Virus record (IMG/VR): IMGVR_UViG_3300044699_000195
Coordinates: 1 to 38,760 of that record
Length of the DNA stretch: 38,760 nucleotides
From: a virus
Reading direction: 5' to 3' (one strand)
Notes under the pieces: generated by a model
Seen by the model: only the letters and a program-made list of their open reading frames with translations
What the model was told of the DNA's origin: nothing
Database searches by the model: none
Position numbers and translations under genes: made by a program
Part shown: positions 3,675 through 35,336 of the stretch, one piece after another
How positions within the stretch are numbered: the first letter of the stretch is position 1
Layout of the letters: every line of letters begins with the position of its first letter

Positions 3675-4572
3675 ATGGCTGGTGAGAGTTCATATCTTCA
3701 GGGCGATCACGACAACGCGACCGCCGTCCCGTTCAGCGATGACACGTCGGCGGACCCCGCCAACGACGTCGACCTCGACGAAGACAAGCCGGGCGCAACC
3801 GTCGAAGAGCGGCTGACCGGCTGCAGAAAAAAGAGGGCCGCACGGCCCGGCTGCTCGCCGAGGGCAAGCAGAGCACCGAGCGCGTCAAGACGCTCGAAGC
3901 CGAGCAGGCCGCGCTCAAGAGCCAGCTCGAACGCCTGCAGGGCTATGTCACGGCGCAGCCGCAGCAGCGCCCGGCGAACGACGGCGGCGACCCGTACAAG
4001 GAGCGGCTCGAGCAAATCTACGCGCACCAGGCCGAGGCGTACAACACCGCCCAGGCCGAAATCAAAGCGGGCACGTTCACCGCCGAGCGGCAGAAGCACT
4101 ACGAGCGCATCGCCCAGGACATCGAGTCGGCGAAGATTGGCGTGCACACCGAGCGGGCGATTGCCCAGGACCGGCAAGCGCGGCGCGGCGAGCAAGCCCA
4201 GCAGGTGTGGGTGCAGAAGTACCCCGAGGTCTACAACAACCCCAAGGCCTTCCAGTACGCGCAGGCGACGCACGCGCGCAAGGTGGCCCTCGGCGAGACC
4301 GTCACAACGACACGGTTGACGAAATCATGCAGGAGACGATCAACACGTTCAAGCTCGGCAAGAAGGCGCCCCCGAGCGCGAGCGAGCGGTCCCGCATGAG
4401 CGGCATCTCCGCGTCGGGCTCGAACGGCAGCTCGCGCAGCACCGGCATCGTCATGACCCCCACGCTGAAGAAGCTCGCGCACGCGGCTCACCCCGACATG
4501 CCTGAGGAGGAGGCCGAGAAGAAGTGGGGTGAACAAGACCGGCAAGCGCCTCCGGACAGCAAGGTGTTGTGA
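3675..4572 (+). CDS. Scaffold-like protein (candidate)
   Basis: A highly charged, largely helical protein of about 300 residues. It starts with ATG behind GAGAGGA. The acidic N-terminus contains DDTSADPANDVDLDEDKPGA. After a frame change near 3825 comes a coiled-coil stretch (ERVKTLEAEQAALKSQLERL) and then YKERLEQIYAHQAEAYNTAQ and KYPEVYNNPKAFQYA. After another change near 4300 the tail reads MQETINTFKLGKK, then a Ser/Gly linker and LKKLAHAAHPDMPEEEAEKK. Acidic start, coiled coil and basic end, between portal and coat, is the profile of capsid scaffolding proteins. Role inferred from architecture and position, not from a named domain. Confidence 0.6.
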
Positions 4573-4868
4573 CCTCGGATGTAGAGCGCGCAGCCGTGCT
4601 CTGGCAGAACGAGATGCTGCGCGAGCACTACCGCACGGCAAACCCGGGGCTCTTCCAGAAGCTCCGGCGTTGCTGCATCTGCTTGCAGAGCTCATGCTCA
4701 GACCAGAGAGCGTGCCGCGCCGAGTTCGAGACGTGGACCCAGAAGCGCTGGGACCGCTCCGTCGAGGCGGAGCTCGACCGGCGGGACCCACACCGCGGCC
4801 CCTACGTGCGGGTTGCCGAAGACGGCACGATGACGCCCTGCACACACGACGGGAAGCCGCTTCCTTGA
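4569..4868 (+). CDS. Small CxxC protein
   Basis: A 99-residue protein starting with GTG inside the stop of the previous gene (GTGA overlap). It has a helical N-terminus (RAAVLWQNEMLREHY) and a cysteine cluster CCICLQSSC with a further Cys seven residues on, which could bind zinc, then a charged segment with WTQKRWDRSVEAELDRRDP. It is the last gene before the tRNA-like genes. No family is recognised. Confidence 0.6.
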   Translation: MTSDVERAAVLWQNEMLREHYRTANPGLFQKLRRCCICLQSSCSDQRACRAEFETWTQKRWDRSVEAELDRRDPHRGPYVRVAEDGTMTPCTHDGKPLP

Positions 4869-4874
4869 TAGCTA

Positions 4875-4943
4875 TTGACAAGGCGCCCGTGTCTAGCTAC
4901 GGGGCCGTCATGCATTGACAGTCAGCGCTTCGGCGCCCCGATG
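4875..4943 (+). promoter_or_regulatory. Two TTGACA boxes upstream of the tRNA-like genes
   Basis: Perfect -35-type hexamers TTGACA occur at 4875-4880 and 4915-4920, exactly 40 bases apart, in the short non-coding stretch before the first tRNA-like gene. At a 17-base spacing the -10 positions read TACGGG and CCGATG, which are poor. They are therefore candidate promoter elements only. Confidence 0.25.
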
Positions 4944-4994
4944 CTTTTGCTCAGCGCGGTTCCTAGGGCCGATCAACGCTGGGCTCCAATTTCT

Positions 4995-5073
4995 GCGCTG
5001 ATAGCTCAGTCGGTCAGAGCACTCGGAGTAATGACCCGAGAGGTCGCTGGTTCGAGTCCAGCTTGGCGCTCCA
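4995..5073 (+). tRNA. tRNA-like gene 1, expanded anticodon arm, anticodon uncertain
   Basis: A cloverleaf can be drawn by hand. Acceptor GCGCTGA (4995-5001) pairs with TTGGCGC (5063-5069), followed by discriminator T and encoded CCA. The D-arm is GCTC...GAGC with GG in the loop. The T-arm is GCTGG TTCGAGT CCAGC, with a 5-nt variable region. The anticodon region between base 26 and the variable loop is 19 nt rather than 17: CTCGG pairs with CCGAG around a 9-nt loop AGTAATGAC. If the inner A and C are taken as a sixth, mismatched pair, the 7-nt loop is GTAATGA with anticodon AAT. The amino-acid identity is not secure. Confidence 0.75.
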
Positions 5074-5112
5074 ATGGCCTGCGGGGCGTAAGCCTTTTGG
5101 CCCACCAATTTT

Positions 5113-5189
5113 GCGCAGGTAGCTCAGCGAAAGAGCACTCTCGCCAAAAGCCTGAGGGGTCGTAGGTTTAAGTCCTACCCTGCGCTCCA
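5113..5189 (+). tRNA. tRNA-like gene 2, degenerate anticodon arm and D-loop
   Basis: Acceptor GCGCAGG (5113-5119) pairs perfectly with CCTGCGC (5079+100 frame, i.e. 5179-5185), then T and encoded CCA. The T-arm is GTAGG TTTAAGT CCTAC. The D-arm is GCTC AGCGAAA GAGC, whose loop lacks the usual GG. The T-loop has T where C56 is expected. The anticodon segment (5138-5156) is again 19 nt, with only the outer three pairs (CTC/GAG) sound, and no clear T33. CCA or AAA could be the anticodon. It may be a non-decoding tRNA mimic or a decayed gene. Confidence 0.6.
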
Positions 5190-5207
5190 ACCATGGGAGG
5201 CCCGGTG

Positions 5208-5495
5208 ATGCGTCTGTACGTAGTTGTGCGCGCAGACTTGCCGCCGGGCCTCCAGTGCGCCCAGGCGTGTCACGCGGCCCGCGCCTTCCGCGACCCGCCC
5301 GATGCGGACGAGAACCTGATCGTGCTGAGCGCGCCGAACGAAGAAGCGTTGCGCTCCCTGCTGTTACAGGCTGGGCCCACCGCTTCTATCGCGGCGTTCC
5401 ACGAGCCCGACCTCGACGGGCAGCTCACCGCGATCGCGCTGAACGGCATCGGCGTTCCCCTGCTGCTGGCAGCGCTCCCCGCTCGCGCTTCGTGA
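5208..5495 (+). CDS. Peptidyl-tRNA hydrolase 2 (PTH2)-like protein
   Basis: A 95-residue protein starting MRLYVVVRADLPPG. The ATG at 5208 is preferred over an upstream ATG at 5193 because GGGAGG lies 7 bases before it. The start (strand VVVRADL followed by QCAQACHAARAF) matches the conserved beginning of PTH2, where R-x-DL-x-x-G-K/x-x-AAQCAHAA forms the first strand and catalytic helix. The rest (LIVLSAPNEEALRSLLLQA, then IAAFHEPDLDGQLTAIAL) matches the alternating beta/alpha pattern of the family. PTH2 releases peptides from peptidyl-tRNA; phage versions are often annotated only as superfamily members. The catalytic Lys usually near the first helix is replaced, so activity is uncertain. It directly follows two tRNA-like genes, suggesting a shared tRNA-related role. 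Confidence 0.65.
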   Translation: MRLYVVVRADLPPGLQCAQACHAARAFRDPPDADENLIVLSAPNEEALRSLLLQAGPTASIAAFHEPDLDGQLTAIALNGIGVPLLLAALPARAS

Positions 5496-5505
5496 TAGGC
5501 GTACG

Positions 5506-5535
5506 CTATCAGACTTGACGGTCTGATAGTTTTCC
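5506..5535 (+). terminator. Rho-independent terminator
   Basis: CTATCAGAC (5506-5514) and GTCTGATAG (5521-5529) form a perfect 9-bp stem around the 6-nt loop TTGACG, followed at once by TTTTCCT. It ends the tRNA/PTH2 unit before the coat genes and is the clearest intrinsic terminator in the window. Confidence 0.85.
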
Positions 5536-5565
5536 TGTCTTACTAACCGGCGACAGCCTATCCCG

Positions 5566-6112
5566 GTGGCCCGTCTCCCACGACGCGCCCGCCTGAACCC
5601 CAGTGGGTCAGCGGAGCGTTCGTGCCGGAAGAGACGGTAGCAACACCACCGAAGAAGGGCATTCGACGAGAGGACCCGCCGCCGCGTCCCGTCGAGCAGT
5701 TGGCAAACCGCGCTATCTCGCCGGTGGCGACGCGAGCAAGCACTACGTCTGGGTGTCCGAGGTCAACGACCCGACCATCAACGTAGGCTACTACCGGCAC
5801 CTCGGTTACCAGGTCGCGCAGTACGACCCGGACGAAGCGCGCCCGAGTCTCGACTTCGGCTCGACGGAGTTCCGCCAGGGCGACCCCATCAAATCGATGG
5901 GCATGGTGCTCATGGAGGTGTCGCAAGCCCGCAAGGCTGAGCTCGACGCCAAGGGCGCCGACGGTCAAGGCGGCTGGGAGAAGGCCGCGCGCATCGAGGA
6001 CACCATCCGCAACCGCGAAGTCGACCCGCTCTCTGCTCAGGAGAAGCGCGAGTTCCGCGGCATCACATCTGTCCGCACTCAGCAGGACGACCGCAAAACC
6101 TGGTCCTTTTGA
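5566..6112 (+). CDS. Head protein of unknown function, upstream of coat
   Basis: About 180 residues. The first part reads PEPQWVSGAFVPEETVATPP and EDPPPRPVEQLAN in one frame. After a one-base frame change near 5705 it continues YLAGGDASKHYVWVSEVNDP, then a region with EFRQGDPIKSMGMVLMEVSQ and a charged helical tail ending DDRKTWSF at 6112. The start is unclear: the first frame opens after TAA at 5544 with no ATG, and GTG 5566 is only a guess. Its position before the coat genes suggests a head or maturation role. No family is recognised. Confidence 0.55.
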
Positions 6113-6794: not shown

Positions 6795-7704
6795 ATGAGT
6801 GAAGTCTTCACCAGTACCGCGGCCCTCGCGCTCAAAGAGACGCTCGAGGACATCGACACGGACGAGCACGGAAGCGAAGGCAGCAAGGCTGTCTTCACCA
6901 AGTGGCTCACCGTCAAGAACATGACCGACAACTACATCGAGTACTACGAGGTAGCTGGCTCAGGCTTGGCGGGTGAGAAGCCCGAGGGCGAGAGCATCCC
7001 GGTCGGCACCATCTTCGAGGGCCCACTCACCCGCTTCAACGCGCGCACCTACGGCCAGCGCATGATCGTGAGCGACGAAGCTCTCGAAGACATGAAGTAC
7101 GACAAGGTCATCCAGGCTGCCAAGCGCAACAACCGCGCGCTCTGGAAGCTGGCGGACTTTGACGCAACCCTGATGCTGGTGCGCGCCACCAACACCGCCT
7201 TCGTCGGCGGCGACGGTCAGCCGCTGGCCAGCACCTCGCACACGCTGCCCGGTGGCGGCACGTACTCGAACAAGATGGCCACGGCGATGAGCCCCTCGAA
7301 GGCGGCGCTCATCATCGCCAACGCGCAGCTCATGCAGCAAGTCGGCCACGACGGGCTCATCGATGGGTGGAAGCGAAGAAGGCCGTGTTCCCCGTGCAGC
7401 AGTGGGGCGTGTGGCGCGAGGTGCTCGGCTCGACGATGGACCCGACGCCGGGCGCCTACAACGCCATCAACGTCATCAACAAGGACCTGAACATCACCCC
7501 GCAGCCGGTGAAGTACTGGACGAGCTCCACTACCAACTGGGCGCTCCTGACGGACGCCGACCTCGGCTTGATGTGGTTCTGGCGCCGCAAGCCCAAGAGC
7601 AACACCTGGGTGACGAGGACAAGACGATGATGAACTACGCGATCACCGCACGCTGGTCGCGCGGGTGGGTCAACGCGCGCGCGATTCTGTTCAGCGACGC
7701 CTGA
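6795..7704 (+). CDS. Major capsid protein (Mu gpT-like type), frame-disrupted
   Basis: The coat subunit, about 302 residues. The N-terminus reads ALKETLEDIDTDEHGSEGSK and VFTKWLTVKNMTDNYIEYYE. Then comes the conserved coat segment ARTYGQRMIVSDEALEDMKY with ALWKLADFDATLML, a glycine-rich loop (GGGTYSN), QLMQQVGHDGLIDG, and a C-terminus LGLMWFWRRKPKSNTW followed by MMNYAITARWSRGWVNARAI. The last motif, with aromatic strands and a final RA-x-x-x-S, is typical of the Mu gpT-like/HK97-fold coats. Frame changes near 7368 and 7612 each equal one missing G. The following 25-residue Lys-rich gene overlaps no coding of this one. Confidence 0.85.
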
Positions 7705-25331: not shown

Positions 25332-25627
25332 CGCAGCCCCCGCCCCTGCCACCCTATGAGGTGGCGCGCGACGCGACCACCGAGCCCGGCATCGGGACGA
25401 GCGCGGAGAACATGGCGCTCAAGCGCGAGAACATGCGCCTGCGCCGGGAGCGCAACGAAGCCCGCCAGGCGCTGAGCCAGGCCCTGACGCGCTTCGGCAA
25501 GCTGAAGCTGGTGGGCAAGTGGGCCATCTTGGGCACCGTCGTCGGGCTGCTCGCCCCGGTCATCGAGCACTACGTGCCCGAGTACGCCGCCGTCATCCAC
25601 GAGCTGGTGAAAGCGTTCGGTTCCTGA
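25328..25627 (+). CDS. Coiled-coil plus one TM protein, lysis cassette
   Basis: A 99-residue protein from GTG 25328 overlapping the lipoprotein stop (GTGA). Residues 27-55 are a coiled coil (NMALKRENMRLRRERNEARQ), then KLVGKWAILGTVVGLLAPVI as one hydrophobic segment near 60-80, and a helical end. Size and topology fit a holin-like or spanin-partner membrane protein. The exact lysis role is inferred from the neighbours only. Confidence 0.5.
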   Translation: MTQPPPLPPYEVARDATTEPGIGTSAENMALKRENMRLRRERNEARQALSQALTRFGKLKLVGKWAILGTVVGLLAPVIEHYVPEYAAVIHELVKAFGS

Positions 25628-26096
25628 TGAGGCTCGTTGACTGGGTGGTGGTGCACACGGCGGGGGCCTACGACTTCAAGGCCAAGCGCGTCGTGTACCA
25701 GTCGACCGAGTCCATTCGCGAGTATCACAAGAAGCACAACGGCTGGCACGACATCGGGTACCACTGGGTCATCGAGGACACTGGGCGGCTGATGCCGGGG
25801 CGCACCGAGGACACGATTGGCGCGCACGTGGGCGGCTTCAACGAGCGCTCCATCGGCATCTGCGTGACCGGGCACGGCGACTTCGCCCCGTTCCTGCCCA
25901 CTCAGATGGCGCAGCTCGTGCGGCTCTGTGCTGGCATCTGCGGGGCCCGGCAGCTCCCGTCCGCTCGGGTCATCGGTCACCGCGAGGCGCCCGACCACGG
26001 CGCCGCCCGACGCACAAGACGTGCCCCGGCATGCTCGTGGACATGAACGAGATCCGCCGGCTGGTGGCGGCGCGGCTCGACCCGGAGGCGGCATGA
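25627..26096 (+). CDS. Endolysin: N-acetylmuramoyl-L-alanine amidase (Amidase_2)
   Basis: A zinc amidase that cleaves between MurNAc and L-Ala. The N-terminus MRLVDWVVVHTAGAY carries the first Zn ligand (His10). WHDIGYHWVIEDTGRLMPGR is the typical fold segment with Tyr45. GAHVGGFNERSIGICVTGHG is the conserved centre. VIGHREAPD gives the second ligand His118, and after a frame change near 26010 HKTCPGM supplies the Cys ligand, as in T7 lysozyme. About 156 residues, T7 lysozyme size. ATG 25627 overlaps the previous stop; its own stop overlaps the next ATG. High confidence in the family. Confidence 0.85.
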
Positions 26097-26591: not shown

Positions 26592-26805
26592 GCGGCGGAC
26601 CCTTGTCCCAGTCGGGCGGCAGCAGTCGCTCGCTCACCACCTCGACGGCGTCTCTATTGTCCGCGTCCCAGTCGTCCGAGCCGCAGAAGAGCCAGCCCCA
26701 TCGGTCCATGTAGTCCTGTGCGTACTCGGCCACGTGGGGCTCACTGCTACCGGTGCGCACCCAGTAGTACCCGGGCTGGCGCTCCTTGATGGTCACCCCT
26801 CTCAC
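26575..26805 (-). CDS. Small early-region protein, GYYWVR type
   Basis: A 76-residue minus-strand protein, MRGVTIKERQPGYYWVRTGS onwards, then AEYAQDYMDRWGWLFCGSDD and a C-terminal acidic and basic mix. The GYYWVR start and Trp-rich middle resemble small phage early proteins. It overlaps the end of the plus-strand nuclease by 17 bases, tail to tail. Its own start overlaps the RecT-like gene stop. Function unknown. Confidence 0.55.
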   Translation of the reverse strand: MRGVTIKERQPGYYWVRTGSSEPHVAEYAQDYMDRWGWLFCGSDDWDADNRDAVEVVSERLLPPDWDKGPPLKSEE

Positions 26806-27674
26806 GCTGCCTCCAGCTCTTCCTGGCTGTACCCCATCTCTTCGGGGCAGTACATGCCGAGCGTGGCGCCGGGCCAGAGCAGGCGCGCGAGCTTGGATCC
26901 CGCCGTCTTCATGAGCATGTCTTGCGGGCGCTTCTCCCAGTTGCCGGGGTTGCCGTACTTGTCCTTCTTGAACACCAGCGTCTTCCCGGTCCGGTCGGGC
27001 ATCCCTAGGGCCTCCCTCGCCTCATCGATGGTGTAGGAGTAGTCCACGTGGGTCGGGTGCTTCTTGTGCTTGCCCCGCCACACCACCTTGGTCGGGCCAA
27101 TCTCGATGGGCATCAGGTATTCGAAGTTCACATCGCGCTCCGCCAGCGCACGGATGAGGTCGGCGCTAGCAACCGGCTTGCCCTCGACCATGTGATGGCC
27201 GGCAAGCGCGGTCGTCATGCCGATGCCGAGCTCTTTGCCCCGAGCGATGACGCTGAACACCGCCTGCTCGGTTTTGAATTGCGGGTAAACCCCGCCATCG
27301 AAGAGCCACATGCTCACCGTCTTGGCGGCCTTCAGGTCGAGCGGCTGTAGGTCCTTGGTGACCAGGCCGTACTGAGATTCGCTGTACTGCGGCAGGGTGA
27401 GGAGCGCATGAGAGGGAGAGTGCCGGGGCACCACCACCGACTCGCCCGCCTTGTCGCCTGGCTCGTTGGAGACGGTGTCGTTCTCTGCCTGCTGCTCCCG
27501 CTCCCGGTCGTACTCCCGCTCGAGCAGCTCGTCGTCCTTGGCGGCCACCTGCTTCAGGTCGGGCAGCTTCTCCTGGTAGAGGCGGGCCGCCTCGTCGAGC
27601 ACTTCCTCGTCCATGCTGCGCAGCGGAGCGATGGGCTCACAGTTGGAGAGCAGCGCCTGGGTGTCGAGCGGCAC
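26802..27674 (-). CDS. RecT-like single-strand annealing protein
   Basis: Encoded on the minus strand; GTG start at 27674 in a 290-residue frame. The first ~95 residues are acidic and helical (DEEVLDEAARLYQEKLPDLK, ELLEREYDREREQQAENDTV). From about 110 comes the annealase domain: SMWLFDGGVYPQFKTEQAVF, ARGKELGIGMTTALAGHHMV, KPVASADLIRALAERDVNFE, then WEKRPQDMLMKTAGSKLARL and WPGATLGMYCPEEMGYSQ. The order G-x-x-L-G-[IL]-x-x-x-x-AL, then W-x-K-x-P-x-DML-x-x, then LG-x-Y-x-PEEM is the RecT-family signature. The N-terminal part continues the exonuclease text, so the two may be fused. Confidence 0.7.
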   Translation of the reverse strand: MPLDTQALLSNCEPIAPLRSMDEEVLDEAARLYQEKLPDLKQVAAKDDELLEREYDREREQQAENDTVSNEPGDKAGESVVVPRHSPSHALLTLPQYSESQYGLVTKDLQPLDLKAAKTVSMWLFDGGVYPQFKTEQAVFSVIARGKELGIGMTTALAGHHMVEGKPVASADLIRALAERDVNFEYLMPIEIGPTKVVWRGKHKKHPTHVDYSYTIDEAREALGMPDRTGKTLVFKKDKYGNPGNWEKRPQDMLMKTAGSKLARLLWPGATLGMYCPEEMGYSQEELEAA

Positions 27675-28446
27675 GTTGGTTATCGAGCGTCGCCAGCTTG
27701 AGCGACATCACCAGGCTCTCCCAGTTGGAGGCGAGCGACTTGATCTTGGCGTTCAGCTTGCTGTCTTGGGTTGCCGCGCCGGTGGCCAGGCCCGCCGCGA
27801 GCAGCTCGAGGGAGGGGTACTTGTTGACCAAGCCCGCCGCCGTCTTCGGGCCAATGTCTGGCACGCCGGGGATGTTGTCCGACGTGTCGCCGACGAGCCC
27901 TTGGTAGAGCGGGATGGTACCCGGCGCGACGCCAAACTTCTTCCACACCGCCGCGATGTCCCGCACTTCCCAATCCTTGGCGCCGACCGGGGGGATGTAC
28001 TGCTTGACGTGCTCGGTGATGCACTGCGCGCAGTCCTTGTCCGTGCCCACGATGCGCACGTCGTCACACCACTCGCTGTAACTCTTGGCGAGCGTGGCGA
28101 TCACGTCGTCGGCTTCGTAGCCCTCGGCAAAGCCCACGGCATAGCCGCGTTTGCCAATCTCTGCCCAGAGCCAGCGCTTCTGCGCGGCCTCTTCGGGCTC
28201 GGCCTTCGGGCGGTTCGCCTTGTACTCGGGGAAGAGAGCGAGGCGCTTGCTGTAGGGCGGGGCGTCGCGGCAGATGATGACGTGGTCGACGCCGCTCTTC
28301 AGATCCTCGATATCCCTGAGCGTGGCGATGGCCGCTGCGTTCTTCTCGCCGAGCGGGATGGTGTGCCACCTCTTTGCGAACAAGTAGCTGATATCGATGA
28401 GCGCGATGCTTTGGGGAGTGGGCGGGAGGGTGAGGGGCTGGGTCAT
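27637..28446 (-). CDS. 5'-3' exonuclease (Pol I N-terminal/flap type)
   Basis: Minus-strand gene from ATG 28446, MTQPLTLPPTPQSIALIDISY. Asp18 in IALIDISYLF is the first metal ligand. RDAPPYSKRLALFPEYKANR is the arch motif with the R-x-x-x-x-x-YK-x-N-R pattern. EADDVIATLAKSYSEW and IVGTDKDCAQCI are two acidic metal-binding segments. VGDTSDNIPGVPDIGPKTAA is the helix-hairpin-helix region. The frame stops at 27637, but the end SLKLATLDN is followed, in the next frame, by VPLDTQALLSNCEPIAPL, which matches this family's C-terminus (LATI...DVPL). One base is probably extra near 27680, so the protein reads into the RecT-like frame. It degrades 5' ends or flaps during replication or recombination. 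Confidence 0.85.
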   Translation of the reverse strand: MTQPLTLPPTPQSIALIDISYLFAKRWHTIPLGEKNAAAIATLRDIEDLKSGVDHVIICRDAPPYSKRLALFPEYKANRPKAEPEEAAQKRWLWAEIGKRGYAVGFAEGYEADDVIATLAKSYSEWCDDVRIVGTDKDCAQCITEHVKQYIPPVGAKDWEVRDIAAVWKKFGVAPGTIPLYQGLVGDTSDNIPGVPDIGPKTAAGLVNKYPSLELLAAGLATGAATQDSKLNAKIKSLASNWESLVMSLKLATLDNQRAARHPGAALQL

Positions 28447-28661
28447 TTGTTTGCTGCTTTCTTCCGTGTCGTGAGCACGCAGTAGATGGGATTGCCGGTG
28501 TCTCGTGAGAGAATCTCGGCGTCTTTGAGTGTGGACACCGTGTCGTCGCCCACCCGAAACTCCCATCGGGAGTATCGGATGATGCGGCCGGCGTTGTCGT
28601 TTGCTGCAGATGTCCGCGGTGACCCGCGGTAGAGGCGATAGGGAATTGGCTTAGGGGTCAA
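28443..28661 (-). CDS. Small early protein (72 aa)
   Basis: Minus-strand gene starting with TTG at 28661, preceded by GGAG five bases upstream, which decides the start. It encodes LTPKPIPYRLYRGSPRTSAA, a basic N-terminus, then SRWEFRVGDDTVSTLKDAEI and a Lys-rich end. The stop overlaps the exonuclease ATG (ATGA). Function unknown; likely a replication-region accessory. Confidence 0.55.
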   Translation of the reverse strand: MTPKPIPYRLYRGSPRTSAANDNAGRIIRYSRWEFRVGDDTVSTLKDAEILSRDTGNPIYCVLTTRKKAANK

Positions 28662-28854: not shown

Positions 28855-29017
28855 CTTCCTCGACGGGAGGCAGGTTGCGCAGCGCGTATCGGCTGACGAT
28901 CCCCTTCTTCTGCCCCTTGCTGCGACTGCGGTTTACGTCTTGTTGGCTGAACCGAAAGCACCGCCTCGGCTCGTCTTTGGGTGGCTCGCACCACTCAGGT
29001 GTCGTTGGCTGGCTCAT
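28844..29017 (-). CDS. Small early protein (57 aa)
   Basis: Minus strand from ATG 29017 with AGGGAG upstream. It encodes MSQPTTPEWCEPPKDEPRRC, then FRFSQQDVNRSRSKGQKKGI and a C-terminal acidic end. Its start overlaps the end of the methyltransferase gene. No recognised domain. Confidence 0.45.
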   Translation of the reverse strand: MSQPTTPEWCEPPKDEPRRCFRFSQQDVNRSRSKGQKKGIVSRYALRNLPPVEEDEP

Positions 29018-29606
29018 TGCGATAGCTCTCCCTTCTGTCCCAGATGACGATGACGATGCCGAACGGTGGATTGCGGCTGGTCCGGTTGGTGATGGCCGCG
29101 CCTCGGTTGCGGAAGCAGCGGCGCCCGGCGAGAAACCGCGTCTCGACGAGAAAGTTGGCGCAGCGGTAATCACGGTAGGGCTCGATGTAGCGCTGCCAGT
29201 AGGGCTGCTCGCAGCGGTTCGCCGGCAAGAGCATCACGACGGTGGCGCCGCAGTAGGTCGCTTTCTTCACCCAGGGCTCGAGGTCGCTAAAGGGCGGGTT
29301 GACCCAGACCCGCTCTCCGGGCCCCCACTCGTGCGCCAGGCCATCGAAGCCGAGCGCGTCCGTATCGCCGACAAACTCCTCGGGGAAGATGCTGAGCTGC
29401 CGAGCGATATAGAGCGGGCTCGGGCCGAGCGTGTAGTAGCGCCGGCACTTGGCGTTGTGACGGGAGGCAGCCGCGTCGAGCGTGAAGTGAAACTCTTCGT
29501 TCAGCGGATCGAACACGTCCGGCGGCGTCTCGCGGTCGTCGACTGAGTCCAGCGCACCCTTGCCCTTGCGGTGGTTCGGGTGGTTCTTCGGGACCATGGC
29601 CAGCAT
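28995..29606 (-). CDS. DNA N6-adenine methyltransferase (phage Dam type)
   Basis: Minus-strand gene; ATG 29606 is chosen because GGAGGAACCCTG precedes it. The protein is about 203 residues. Motifs: RETPPDVFDPLNEEFHFTLD and AAASRHNAKCRRYYT, the cofactor-binding start of the phage Dam family; then GERVWVNPPFSDLEPWVKKA, where NPPF is the catalytic motif; and VVMLLPANRCEQPYWQRYIE. It methylates adenine in DNA and may protect phage DNA from host restriction. It is intact and lies between the small genes and the initiator. Family assignment is strong, the target site is unknown. Confidence 0.85.
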   Translation of the reverse strand: MLAMVPKNHPNHRKGKGALDSVDDRETPPDVFDPLNEEFHFTLDAAASRHNAKCRRYYTLGPSPLYIARQLSIFPEEFVGDTDALGFDGLAHEWGPGERVWVNPPFSDLEPWVKKATYCGATVVMLLPANRCEQPYWQRYIEPYRDYRCANFLVETRFLAGRRCFRNRGAAITNRTSRNPPFGIVIVIWDRRESYRNEPANDT

Positions 29607-29824
29607 CAGGGTTCCTCCGCCGGCTTGCGGCACTCGGCCTCGAGCGCTTCCACGCGCTCCATCGCCCGGGACCAGTCTTGGAAAGCCTGGTGATATCCCC
29701 AGGCATTGAAGATGTTGTGGGCAATGCTGAGGTTGCCCGGGTCCCTCTCCCAAGCTTCTTTGCGGGCCTCTGCCAGCCGTTGGGCGTCAGCACGCGCTCT
29801 CTCGAGTGCTACGCGGCGGTTCAC
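29606..29824 (-). CDS. Helical small protein before the methyltransferase
   Basis: Minus strand from GTG 29824, VNRRVALERARADAQRLAEA, then WERDPGNLSIAHNIFNAWGY and QAFQDWSRAMERVEALEAEC. Mainly helical, about 72 residues. GTG overlaps the initiator stop (GTGA) and its stop overlaps the methyltransferase ATG. Function unknown. Confidence 0.5.
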   Translation of the reverse strand: MNRRVALERARADAQRLAEARKEAWERDPGNLSIAHNIFNAWGYHQAFQDWSRAMERVEALEAECRKPAEEP

Positions 29825-30976: not shown

Positions 30977-32654
30977 TCAGCGACGACGCCTGCGTGCGTC
31001 TGAGAGCTTGTGGACGGGTGCGAGACGCAGCGGCGCGTTGATGATCACCCGAATCTGATCGGCGCGTTCCCAGTCGCCCTCGAGCACTGCCTGAGCAGCG
31101 GCGGCGAGCAGGGATTCACGAGAGCTTGAGTTCTGTCCCAATGTCTGGGATAGAACCCACTCGCCAGGGCTCTCTAGCGCTCCCTCAGGTGTTGAATCCA
31201 CCTGAGTTTGTGCAGGTTCGAGAGCAGAGCCTTCATCTACGGAACCGAAGGTCACTCGTTCGAATCGAGTCGGGCGCGCAAGTAGTTTCGCAGAGTTACC
31301 GAGACCCAGGCCCCGTCGAGGTGGGGGTTTTGACCCAGTCGCTGGGACAGAACCCCCAGACGGCGGGATTGCGCCCGGCAACGCCGCCGCCGGCACCCCC
31401 ACCAGAATGCGCTTCATGTAATGCTTGTTCCCCGTCGCCGCCTGCGTGTGCCCGAGAATCGCGATGCGCTGATCGTCGGTCACCCCTGCCTCCACCAGGG
31501 CCGCGTTCAGATCCGCGCGCAGCCCGTGGAACGTCAGGCGACGGGTCGTGTCGGTGTCCGTCTGAAAGGCGCAGAACTTCTTGTCGGGCTGGGCAGGGTC
31601 GAAGCCCGGCAAGGGCGAGTAGATCTGCTCCTTCCACACCGCCCGCCGGAACGCCTTGGCGTAGCTCGTGCCCCGTCCCTTGCGGCCCCCCACCGTGCCC
31701 CTTGCCGCTCGATGACCTGTCCGCCCTTCAGCTTCATGGGCGTCGTCACCGCGTTGCGCAAGAGCGGGAAGATGGGGCCGCTCGTCGGGCAGCCCTGGCT
31801 CTGCCAGTACTCGCACGCAAAGGCGGGTCGGTACTGCTCGTGCACCGTGTGCACACGCGTGCTCGTAGTTCTTCGTCTTGCTCTTCTGCTTCCCCACCCG
31901 TTGTCCTACCTGCCCGTCCGTCTTCGGGCGGCGCACTTTCATCGTGGCGAAGCCCACGAGGTCCACATGGCTCCAGTCGCCCGCATGCCCGTCGCTCGTC
32001 CGCTGCCCACCCACGCACGGCAGAGCAGATGTTCATGTCGATGCGGGCTCGTGAAGCCGCGCCGCGTCTGAAACGTGATCATCTGCGCGTCGCTCAGTGC
32101 ATCCGCTCGCGCGTGTCGACCGTCGCCTCTCTCGGGCAACGCCAGCTCCTTGGCGGGGTTCATCTTCAGCTCACCCTCACGTACCAGCTTGGAGAGAATG
32201 ACGCTGATGTCGCTCCGCAGGTTGTGAGTCGTCCGGAAGCGAGGCGCCCTGCTCTGCCATACGGTCGAGCACAGCCAACGATGTGGCTCGGCTCGAGCAA
32301 GCCCACACGGCACCTGACCGATGATGGGCAGCGCATACTTGCGCAAGCGGGTCGCGCCGGTACTGGACCAGCCTTCTTCTCGGCGTCGGCCTGAGCCTTG
32401 GCAAGCCTTCTCACTCTAGAGATCGCGCTCGGCTTCTTCAGTGAAGGAGCGCTCGCCGCGCTGGCCGCGGGCGGCGTACCCGTGCGACCCCACGCCTCGA
32501 ATCATCTTGCGAGCGAGCTCGCGATCGGTCGTGCCGAGTGGCAACCAACCAGACCACTTGGTCGCGCCGCTCGGCCCATACGCGGCCGACCCATCCCTTG
32601 CCGCTCGTGAAGCGCGGGCCCTCGGAGCGGAAACTCCTTCTTCGGGCGAGCCAT
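30977..32654 (-). CDS. Tyrosine integrase, reading frame spans attP; N-terminal two thirds frame-disrupted
   Basis: Minus-strand site-specific recombinase, ATG 32654 overlapping the excisionase-like stop (TGATG). Fragments in changing frames give the N-terminal SAM-like domain (RTTHNLRSDISVILSKLVRE, ALSDAQMITFQTRRGF), then GMRAGDWSHVDLVGFATMKV with Arg I. From about 31570 the frame is continuous: LTFHGLRADLNAALVEAGVT (His-x-x-Arg), GHTQAATGNKHYMKRIL (His and nucleophile Tyr) and an unusual C-terminus of about 180 residues to 30977, ending KLSDARRRRR. This frame crosses the tRNA-derived attP at 31237-31280. Frame changes occur several times between 31640 and 32650, so the exact N-terminus is uncertain. 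Confidence 0.8.
31130..31156 (+). repeat. 27-bp imperfect palindrome, copy A, left of attP
   Basis: GTTCTGTCCCA (31130-31140), 5-nt spacer, TGGGATAGAAC (31146-31156): 11-bp arms with one G-T pair. It is closely matched by copy B at 31327-31353, and the two flank the attP core. Candidate arm-type or accessory binding sites. Confidence 0.6.
31236..31280 (+). other. attP-like core: 3' half of a tRNA-Arg
   Basis: On the plus strand the sequence CTACGGAACCGAAGG (31237-31251), then ACTCG TTCGAAT CGAGT (31254-31270) and CGGGCGCG form an anticodon loop (anticodon ACG), perfect T-arm and acceptor 3' strand of an arginine tRNA. No matching acceptor 5' strand (GCGCCCG) lies upstream and the 5' anticodon strand does not pair, so identity begins at the anticodon loop. 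That is the usual attP core for a tyrosine integrase, here beside the integrase active site. The integrated target would be a host tRNA-Arg gene. Confidence 0.7.
31323..31357 (+). repeat. 27-bp imperfect palindrome, copy B, within a longer hairpin right of attP
   Basis: GTTTTGACCCA (31327-31337), 5-nt spacer, TGGGACAGAAC (31343-31353) repeats copy A with 19 of 22 arm bases identical and the same spacer length. Flanking GGGGG/CCCCC extends it to a 15-pair hairpin with one mismatch (31323-31357). It may also act as a structured element at the integrase 3' part. Confidence 0.6.
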
Positions 32655-35243: not shown

Positions 35244-35317
35244 GGGGCCATCGTCTAAGGGGAAGGACGCCAGGGCTTATCCCCACGGATACGCGGGTTC
35301 GAGTCCCGCTGGCTCCA
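35244..35317 (+). tRNA. tRNA-like gene 3, tRNA-Glu-like scaffold, expanded anticodon arm
   Basis: Acceptor GGGGCCA (35244-35250) pairs with TGGCTCC (35310-35316), discriminator A, no encoded CCA. D-arm GTCTAAGGGGAAGGAC and T-arm GCGGG TTCGAGT CCCGC match the usual tRNA-Glu scaffold closely. The anticodon segment is 19 nt, CCAGGGCTTATCCCCACGG. Outer C-G pairs and an inner GG/CC with two mismatches between leave a 7-nt loop CTTATCC with anticodon TAT. The anticodon arm is weak, so function as a decoding tRNA is uncertain. Confidence 0.65.
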
Positions 35318-35336
35318 CGCAAGGGAGGTTAGGCAA

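Follow-up and report, generated by a model that had tools for sequence, protein, structure and literature searches.

The window, that is, the whole stretch of DNA analysed here, is a 38,760-base IMG/VR virus record with a G+C content of 66.0%. According to the list of open reading frames (ORFs) and to the ARAGORN and Rfam calls, it holds a cassette of RNA and protein elements between the end of an ORF at 4572 and the start of a gene near 5603, with all parts on the plus strand. These parts, together with the small ORF that precedes them, are the following:

4569-4868, plus strand: small ORF 5' of the cassette, with no Pfam or NCBIfam match at E values up to 1
4875..4903, plus strand: promoter-like sequence at the start of the cassette (TTGACA and TACGGG, 17 nt apart), read from the sequence
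4912..4946, plus strand: conserved leader 5' of tRNA1 (GCATTGACAGTCAGCGC, a loop, then GCGC ...), from an alignment of four phages
4995..5073, plus strand: tRNA1, from ARAGORN, Rfam RF00005, and pair counts over 11 sequences
5075..5107, plus strand: CCA-tailed hairpin between tRNA1 and tRNA2, from fold z scores
5113..5189, plus strand: tRNA2, from ARAGORN, Rfam RF00005, and folding
5205..5495, plus strand: PTH2-like gene, from profiles and an alignment, with the fold predicted on the L028 protein
5493..5543, plus strand: operator/promoter-like element for the downstream (coat-side) genes, from the repeat pattern, the relatives, and the fold z score

Both tRNA-like genes reported in an earlier note on this DNA, at 4995-5073 and 5113-5189, were confirmed, being called by ARAGORN and exceeding the RF00005 gathering threshold of 29 bits (54.2 bits for tRNA1 and 44.6 bits for tRNA2); the 9-nt anticodon loop, the CCA-tailed hairpin between the tRNAs, and the promoter-like start at 4875 do not appear in that note. 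The hexamers and spacing of the promoter-like start are identical in the related phage L002; a consensus promoter scanner called none between 4500 and 6200, and the promoter at 4875..4903, read from the sequence, is thus putative. The leader is conserved across the four aligned cassette-bearing related phages (the window, L002, L096, and L098), and its fold over 4915-4960 is unremarkable (z 0.53). In L002, whose DNA is 74-87% identical to the window across aligned blocks and whose PTH2-like protein is 53% identical, the same cassette parts come straight after the upstream gene and the 4569 ORF is absent; for this reason, we placed that ORF outside the cassette. The distance from the end of tRNA2 to the start of the hydrolase is 15 nt, and this start is probably the GTG at 5205, with GGGAGG upstream and a GTG also in L002.

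The cassette had been described as interrupting a scaffold-coat gene order. The interruption itself stands, since the order is intact without the cassette in the relatives L007 to L011, but the gene names are less secure: the "scaffold" label comes from gene position alone, and the "coat" gene has weak matches to Pfam Phage_capsid_4 (E 0.0011, below the cut-off) and to a PHROG major head protein (E 0.012). L007 to L011 have the same site without tRNA genes or a PTH2-like gene, and both the PTH2-like protein and tRNAs are absent from their records as well. In L005, two other genes are found at the site, one resembling SSB by eye and one homologous to the 4569 ORF, and in L006 an unrelated small ORF is present there. 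The cassette thus occupies a variable site. Of the records of 12 relatives searched, several of which are short fragments, 4 (L001, L002, L096, and L098) matched the protein profile and 8 did not, and the Rfam tRNA matches were confined to those same 4. In this set, L001 is the same virus as the window; moreover, L028 is the same virus as L001, and L029 is the same contig as L002. The earlier note had made its reading depend on the genes occurring together in relatives, and they do so in the related phages L002, L096, and L098 and, beyond these, in other viruses (L030, L033, L039, L046, and L267). Trees of the coat and g5603 proteins, the latter with an unreliable L006 row (wrong reading frame), did not distinguish between single and multiple gains of the cassette.

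As for the rest of the record, apparent frameshifts split the window genes at 456-2260, 3675-4572, and 6795-7630 (portal-like, in scaffold position, and coat-like, respectively). These frameshifts, and a one-base length difference from the near-identical L001 in the hydrolase C terminus (5470-5495), are possibly sequencing or assembly errors. An Amidase_2 lysin (25624-26046), RecT and 5'-3' exonuclease domains (26802-28566, minus strand), and a Dam-type methyltransferase domain (28995-29753, minus strand) were also observed. A stretch of the frame at 30977-32014 (minus strand) resembles by eye the C terminus of a tyrosine integrase, and the frame had no Pfam match at E 0.001; the phage may be temperate, and tRNA-dependent lysogeny (PMC10865867) was considered and set aside.

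tRNA1 has the formal anticodon AAU and an encoded CCA, and its anticodon arm consists of a 5-bp stem and a 9-nt loop at 5027-5035, AGUAAUGAC. The anticodon loop of a normal tRNA has 7 nt, a rule broken under the tested structure by 9-nt loops in 11 of 11 tRNA1-like sequences, and tRNA2 is irregular. The 11 genes come from ten sources (the window, L002, L096, L098, L030, L033, L093 with two genes, L267, L046, and L039), of which the window, L002, L096, and L098 are related phages. In their alignment, 99.6% of the 228 cells are paired and 16 of the 21 pairs show two-sided changes, a level of pairing reached by 0 of 500 shuffles, while slid controls gave 25-49%. In particular, the anticodon stem is 100% paired, and UAAUG in the loop is identical in 11 of 11; this loop identity is partly a selection effect, because all of the genes were picked by the AAU call and four of them (L093a, L096, L098, and L267) through the loop pattern. 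The loops of the other seven are AGUAAUGAC (in three), AGUAAUGCC, AGUAAUGAU, CGUAAUGAC, and GUUAAUGAU. The loop core is common to these genes, and the acceptor stems and discriminator bases differ. The way in which the genes were picked cannot explain the changes in the stems, and therefore tRNA1 is a real RNA under selection, with an abnormal loop.

tRNA2 has the formal anticodon AAA, an encoded CCA, and an irregular anticodon arm, GCCAAAAGC; its acceptor and T stems each show one two-sided, pairing-preserving change in L002. The hairpin at 5075..5107 has fold z scores of -0.61 in the window, -2.74 in L001, -5.52 in L002, and -6.30 in L098, and the window copy differs from that of L001 by single-base length differences. 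Both window tRNAs have G1-C72, C2-G71, G3-C70, and U73. We considered a Gly-type acceptor decoy against glycyl-tRNA toxins and dropped it in view of G73 in L002 tRNA2 and L096 tRNA1 and of A73 in L030. The codons corresponding to AAU and AAA are rare, with AUU at 0.33 and UUU at 0.73 per 100 in six chosen window frames, and neither tRNA has the stop anticodon of a suppressor. With their abnormal anticodon arms and anticodons for rare codons, the window tRNAs are not plain translation helpers. At 35244-35318, a third tRNA-like gene, to which ARAGORN assigns Ile and the anticodon TAT, has no encoded CCA and an anticodon arm of irregular form; directly 3' of it comes an ATG with a GGGAGG stretch. 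ATGs preceded by odd tRNA-like genes were also seen in the record of L098 (L277; Rfam gives three in tandem) and in that of L001 (L275).

The gene at 5205..5495 had been likened to PTH2, a similarity that is firm when the aligned viral proteins are considered and that is accompanied by a predicted fold, but that stays below curated cut-offs for the single protein of the window. The latter scored 17.9 bits against Pfam PTH2 (PF01981), short of the gathering threshold of 23, and 11.5 bits against NCBIfam Pth2 (cut-off, 126), and a phmmer search with it against the PDB gave nothing useful. The proteins of L081 and L022 exceed the Pfam gathering threshold (25.6 and 25.3 bits, respectively), Pfam PTH2 is listed for 37 of 37 aligned viral proteins at E values up to 1 (best, 1e-12), and the profile of these 37 proteins matched, in the PDB, the archaeal Pth2 MJ0051 (2zv3; E 6.7e-10) and 1rzw (2.3e-8). 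The structure prediction that the earlier note had suggested was run on the L028 protein, 96% identical to that of the window, which models as a Pth2 fold (AlphaFold pLDDT 89.8, pTM 0.83); the top four Foldseek matches of the model are chains of the 2zv3 Pth2 (E 3.6e-5, TM 0.71), followed by 2gax Atu0240. The residues R9, D11, G15, Q17, Q20, H23, E67, P68, D69, and T75 are invariant in the 37-protein alignment. The catalytic lysine of Pth2 presumably sits in the GKGK segment, and the position aligned to it is Leu or Tyr in most viral members.

Because the 75 stretches retrieved from cellular genome contigs with one short peptide pattern held no relative of the PTH2-like protein, the family looks virus specific within the limits of that pattern. 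A PADLOC scan of the 37 viral proteins gave three isolated weak matches, each in one member. The PTH2 domain occurs inside longer proteins in L022:3461-4297 (jumbo phage XacN1) and L081:3001-3888 (279 and 296 amino acids, respectively), the extra part of which looks HD-like by eye and had zero Pfam matches. The open frame holding the PTH2-like domain in L093, L094, and L095 (191 amino acids as called) is overlapped in its 3' part by tRNAs that have 9-nt loops.

The inverted repeat at 5506-5529, CTATCAGACTTGACGGTCTGATAG, had been taken for a perfect terminator. The repeat is real, occurring once in the window, with 0 of 100 shuffles matching at up to 3 mismatches, and its RNA fold has a z score of -5.65; however, it is centred on TTGAC, is kept in the cassette-less L007 to L010, and belongs to the hydrolase frame, at its 3' end, in L028/L001 and L029/L002, and the terminator was set aside as the main reading. 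The element at 5493..5543 comprises TGATAG half-sites, the palindrome, TTGACG at 5515-5520, a 17-nt spacer, and TCTTAC at 5538-5543; in several relatives, the hexamer lying 17 nt past the TTGAC centre is richer in AT. The repeat pattern with free bases around the centre was found in 12 of 99 loci, corresponding to 7 distinct viruses (window/L001, L002, L098, and the cassette-less L007 to L010); in its exact form, it is missing from L005, L006, L011, L012, and L096. Since the cassette-less L007 to L010 keep the repeat, it is more likely to be an operator over a promoter of the downstream genes than a terminator. Against the operator reading, a promoter scanner called zero sites around the repeat, and a terminator scanner called 5505-5530, where 4 of 11 pairs are GC, its single call in the region comparing with 0.9 expected by chance.

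To describe the association between the protein and its RNA neighbours, we defined as odd any tRNA with a stop anticodon, an abnormal loop size, or an AAU/AAA anticodon. The 71 loci considered (65 from the protein search, L002, which repeats the L029 contig, and five found by a tRNA pattern) fall into 39 clusters at 75% protein identity, among which related phages remain, and 36 clusters were counted after the three that the tRNA pattern had brought in were removed. Of these 36, 33 have a tRNA of any kind within 1.6 kb of the protein; an odd tRNA is present in 28, 25, 22, and 16 of the 36 within 1600, 1100, 600, and 250 nt, respectively, and 20 have a stop-anticodon tRNA at up to 1600 nt. All 213 tRNAs that lie within 1.6 kb (168 distinct sequences; 66 of the 71 loci) share the strand of the protein, and the nearest odd tRNA is downstream of the gene in 22 of 28 clusters and upstream in 6. 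The eight clusters without an odd tRNA within 1.6 kb are L035, L044, L047, L051, L057, L086, L087, and L089; when Rfam was run on these and on L061, tRNAs were found in all except L047 and L087, and a tmRNA was found in L044 and L047. Further Ile-type GAT tRNAs with 9-nt-like loops (e.g., ACUGAUGUC) lie close to the PTH2-like gene in L035 and L046; ARAGORN calls them ordinary, and they were counted as sense.

The control consisted of 119 viral loci among the matches listed for one T-arm pattern, 72 of them with an ARAGORN tRNA. Its 466 tRNAs comprised 456 ordinary and 10 odd ones (4 stop, 3 odd loop, and 3 AAU/AAA), and among the matches listed, stop-anticodon tRNAs occur at just two loci, L181 and L182, which look like one lineage and are also the only two with the protein. 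With these two excluded, an odd tRNA was found in 28 of the 33 clusters that have a tRNA versus 5 of 47 control loci (Fisher p 2e-11; first 80 control loci listed), a comparison of clusters with contigs of other lengths. In the reverse direction, the loop pattern AGCACNNGGAGTAATGNCC matched 19 of 2.9 million viral contigs, within a tRNA in 12, and the protein was present in 12 of those 12, two of which hold it through other loci of the same contig, and in 0 of the 7 others. In cellular genomes, the pattern matched 36 times, once in a called tRNA (Ser/SeC calls, L283), and the protein was found at 0 of the 36 loci. From this linkage, a tRNA-related function of the cassette is well supported.

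The RNAs at these loci depart from the usual anticodon arm in several ways. Position 31 fails to pair with position 39, at the top of the anticodon stem next to the 7-nt loop, in 15 of the 31 distinct tRNAs with stop anticodons at protein loci and in 5 of 7 AAU tRNAs, against 11 of 184 other (sense) tRNAs from these loci and 10 of 313 from the control. Cloverleafs with an anticodon arm capped by 4 nt are found in L267_2 (GGAG), L039_mid (GCCA), and L046_2 (UCCG), and L096_tRNA2 has a long anticodon arm with a GCAA cap. The tRNA2 of the window and that of L002 fold as cloverleafs with small irregular arms, and 5 of 11 folded partners (L039 "gaa", L267_mid, L030_mid, and two of L035) gave no clean cloverleaf. 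L030_hp is a 15-bp hairpin with a CCA tail, and CCA-tailed hairpins occur in L030, L001, L002, and L098.

At several soil-phage loci, belonging to a few related lineages that do not include the window, tRNA_bind (best E, 1.9e-22) and HD_4 (best E, 5.7e-13) genes lie between the protein and the tRNAs, with a CoaE gene in two of these loci; HD_4 covers SpoT-like HD domains. The 99-protein neighbour set, made up of 94 of 138 script-proposed ORFs and 5 hand-added tRNA_bind/HD genes, contains 8 HD_4 and 6 tRNA_bind members, counts that are not an unbiased rate because the five proteins were added by hand after they had been sighted. Among control neighbours (99 of 155 proposed ORFs), both families are absent from the best 25 of 50 families, and at most one member of each could be hidden among the rest. 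In L031, the PTH2-like frame contains a single in-frame TAG (L031:3166), and a tRNA with a CTA anticodon lies 74 nt downstream of the match; stop-codon recoding in L031 is possible.

The conserved structure of tRNA1, the abnormal anticodon arms, the predicted PTH2 fold, the same-strand linkage in several unrelated viruses, and the insertion at a variable site are the results computed here; catalysis, decoy action, and counter-defence are what we infer beyond them. The explanation that we prefer, tentatively and well short of conviction, is that the cassette encodes several CCA-ended tRNA-like RNAs, which would leave normal sense codons unread, and with them a PTH2-family protein of the virus type, whose action would be at tRNA 3' ends. 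The RNAs would be processed and handled as tRNAs at their acceptor end, where host enzymes could charge, acetylate, pyrophosphorylate, or otherwise modify them, and the PTH2-like protein may bind them or cleave the ester of blocked (peptidyl- or N-acyl-aminoacyl-) forms. In this way, host enzymes attacking the 3' ends of tRNAs would meet a sink or decoy that the phage maintains and recycles, and the cassette would be most useful against enzymes of this kind. Besides the linkage and the structure of tRNA1, the arms capped by 4 nt, the CCA-tailed hairpins, the unpaired 31-39, and the tRNA_bind and HD_4 neighbours of some loci speak in favour of this explanation. As related activities, a small alarmone hydrolase of a phage is reported to remove the tRNA modification made by FaRel2 (PMC11559606), and tRNA acetylation by TacT is reported to be undone by Pth, an enzyme of the bacterial type that is dissimilar in sequence to Pth2 (PMC9241777). 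Of the earlier proposal of a tRNA-processing or tRNA-protection module serving counter-defence or translation support, the tRNA-related function is upheld by the linkage, plain translation support is disfavoured by the abnormal arms and rare codons, and a counter-defence role is possible. More generally, and with a shade more reserve, it is possible to hypothesize a two-part viral system in which a PTH2-fold protein is dedicated to tRNA mimics and CCA-tailed minihelices, which would act through their 3' ends or their loop and not by sense decoding, the mimic arm being a stop-reading one, a 9-nt GUAAUGA loop, or a tetraloop hairpin.

A 3'-end decoy should conserve its acceptor end, yet what the tRNA1-like genes share is the loop, and the loop itself thus seems important. 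The Leu or Tyr at the presumed lysine position, the eight clusters that lack a nearby odd tRNA, and the five folded partners with no clean cloverleaf also weigh against the 3'-end explanation. The shared loop with a variable acceptor stem is the strongest evidence against the 3'-end explanation and favours a different one, to which we give nearly level standing, as a possible but doubtful account: the expanded-loop and stop-anticodon tRNAs would be nonstandard decoders that read stop or near-cognate codons and often drop off the ribosome as peptidyl-tRNA, which the PTH2-like protein would recycle. Indeed, most odd tRNAs of the wider family have stop anticodons and could simply suppress stops; stop anticodons in 20 of 36 clusters, the unpaired 31-39 in 15 of 31, the shared core of the tRNA1-like loop, the in-frame TAG of L031 with its nearby CTA tRNA, and the argument that codon reading is affected by changes in the anticodon stem (PMC13092985, 2026) all agree with decoding. 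However, partner RNAs whose arms are capped by 4 nt lack the usual anticodon loop, CCA-tailed hairpins are unable to decode, and AUU is rare in the counted window frames.

The other accounts appear less probable. That these are ordinary Ile/Phe phage tRNAs accompanied by a ribosome-rescue hydrolase is unlikely in our view, even though Rfam and ARAGORN both call tRNAs, the PTH2 of jumbo phages has been proposed to rescue jammed ribosomes (PMC7824862), and the genes common to about 96% of the tRNA arrays in cluster C mycobacteriophages include a PTH2-like one (PMC5966550); the 9-nt loop, the irregular arm, the A34 anticodons, the rare codons, and the specific link with odd tRNAs speak against it. 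Equally improbable is that the elements act in cis, as tRNA-like 5' leaders that RNase P would cleave and that would set the expression of the next gene: tRNA2 does end 15 nt 5' of the hydrolase start, and the tRNA-like genes at 35244-35318, L275, and L277 stand just 5' of an ATG with a purine-rich stretch, but the nearest odd tRNA is downstream in 22 of 28 clusters, and the CCA ends of the cassette are encoded, as free tRNAs would have them. Degenerate tRNA genes or chance structures, to which the odd loops, the variable arm lengths, and a window hairpin no more stable than its shuffles (z -0.61) might point, are highly improbable as a general account; for tRNA1, this reading is strongly disfavoured by 99.6% pairing, two-sided changes at 16 of 21 pairs, and 0 of 500 shuffles as high, and the linkage of the protein with odd tRNAs is far above the control.

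Some components of this picture are known already, namely, phage PTH2 genes among tRNAs (PMC5966550 and PMC7824862) and suppressor tRNAs together with a putative hydrolase (PMC5852040 and PMC6102473). In the cluster C mycobacteriophages Myrna (L015) and Cane17 (L016), a homologous protein (41% and 39% identity, respectively, over about 80% of the window query) is encoded among phage tRNAs on the same strand (PMC5966550). However, their records are about 154-165 kb long and most of the neighbours are ordinary tRNAs, whereas the cassette of the window is minimal, with a CCA-tailed hairpin and two tRNAs, both abnormal, and the record is 39 kb long. Cluster C arrays hold pyrrolysine- and selenocysteine-type tRNAs, for which no link to the PTH2 gene was found in the available text (PMC5966550). 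The jumbo-phage PTH2 belongs to the same fold family, and ribosome rescue has been proposed for it, but the accessible part of that report contains no link with abnormal tRNAs (PMC7824862). Phages XacN1 (PMC5852040) and Atu_ph07 (PMC6102473) combine stop-anticodon tRNAs with a putative peptidyl-tRNA hydrolase; in the text available for these, hydrolase and suppressor tRNAs are listed separately, and the window tRNAs, different from theirs, have no stop anticodon. The archaeal Pth2 MJ0051 (2zv3) resembles the phage proteins in predicted fold and profile match, but the latter have Leu or Tyr at the presumed lysine position and an E-P-D motif invariant in the 37 sequences. Altered anticodon loops are also a feature of phage tRNAs that have been proposed to evade anticodon nucleases (PMC10264068); those carry base changes, with decoding thought to be kept, whereas in the cassette family the loop is changed in size or lost. 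In the available portions of the open-access PMC literature searched, we found no link of phage PTH2 to abnormal or suppressor tRNAs, nor the GUAAUGA-loop family or mimics without the usual anticodon loop.

The role of phage tRNAs has long been debated (PMC10264068), and the cassette ties a subset of them that is poorly explained by codon supply to one protein. At about 620 bp (4875-5495), it is minimal enough to be cloned and assayed. If the decoy or recycling model is true, the cassette would represent a counter-defence strategy against toxins that act on tRNA 3' ends; if the decoding model is true, it would provide natural expanded-loop decoders. The pairing of the same protein with odd tRNAs in other, unrelated viruses points to an unexplained RNA-protein partnership.
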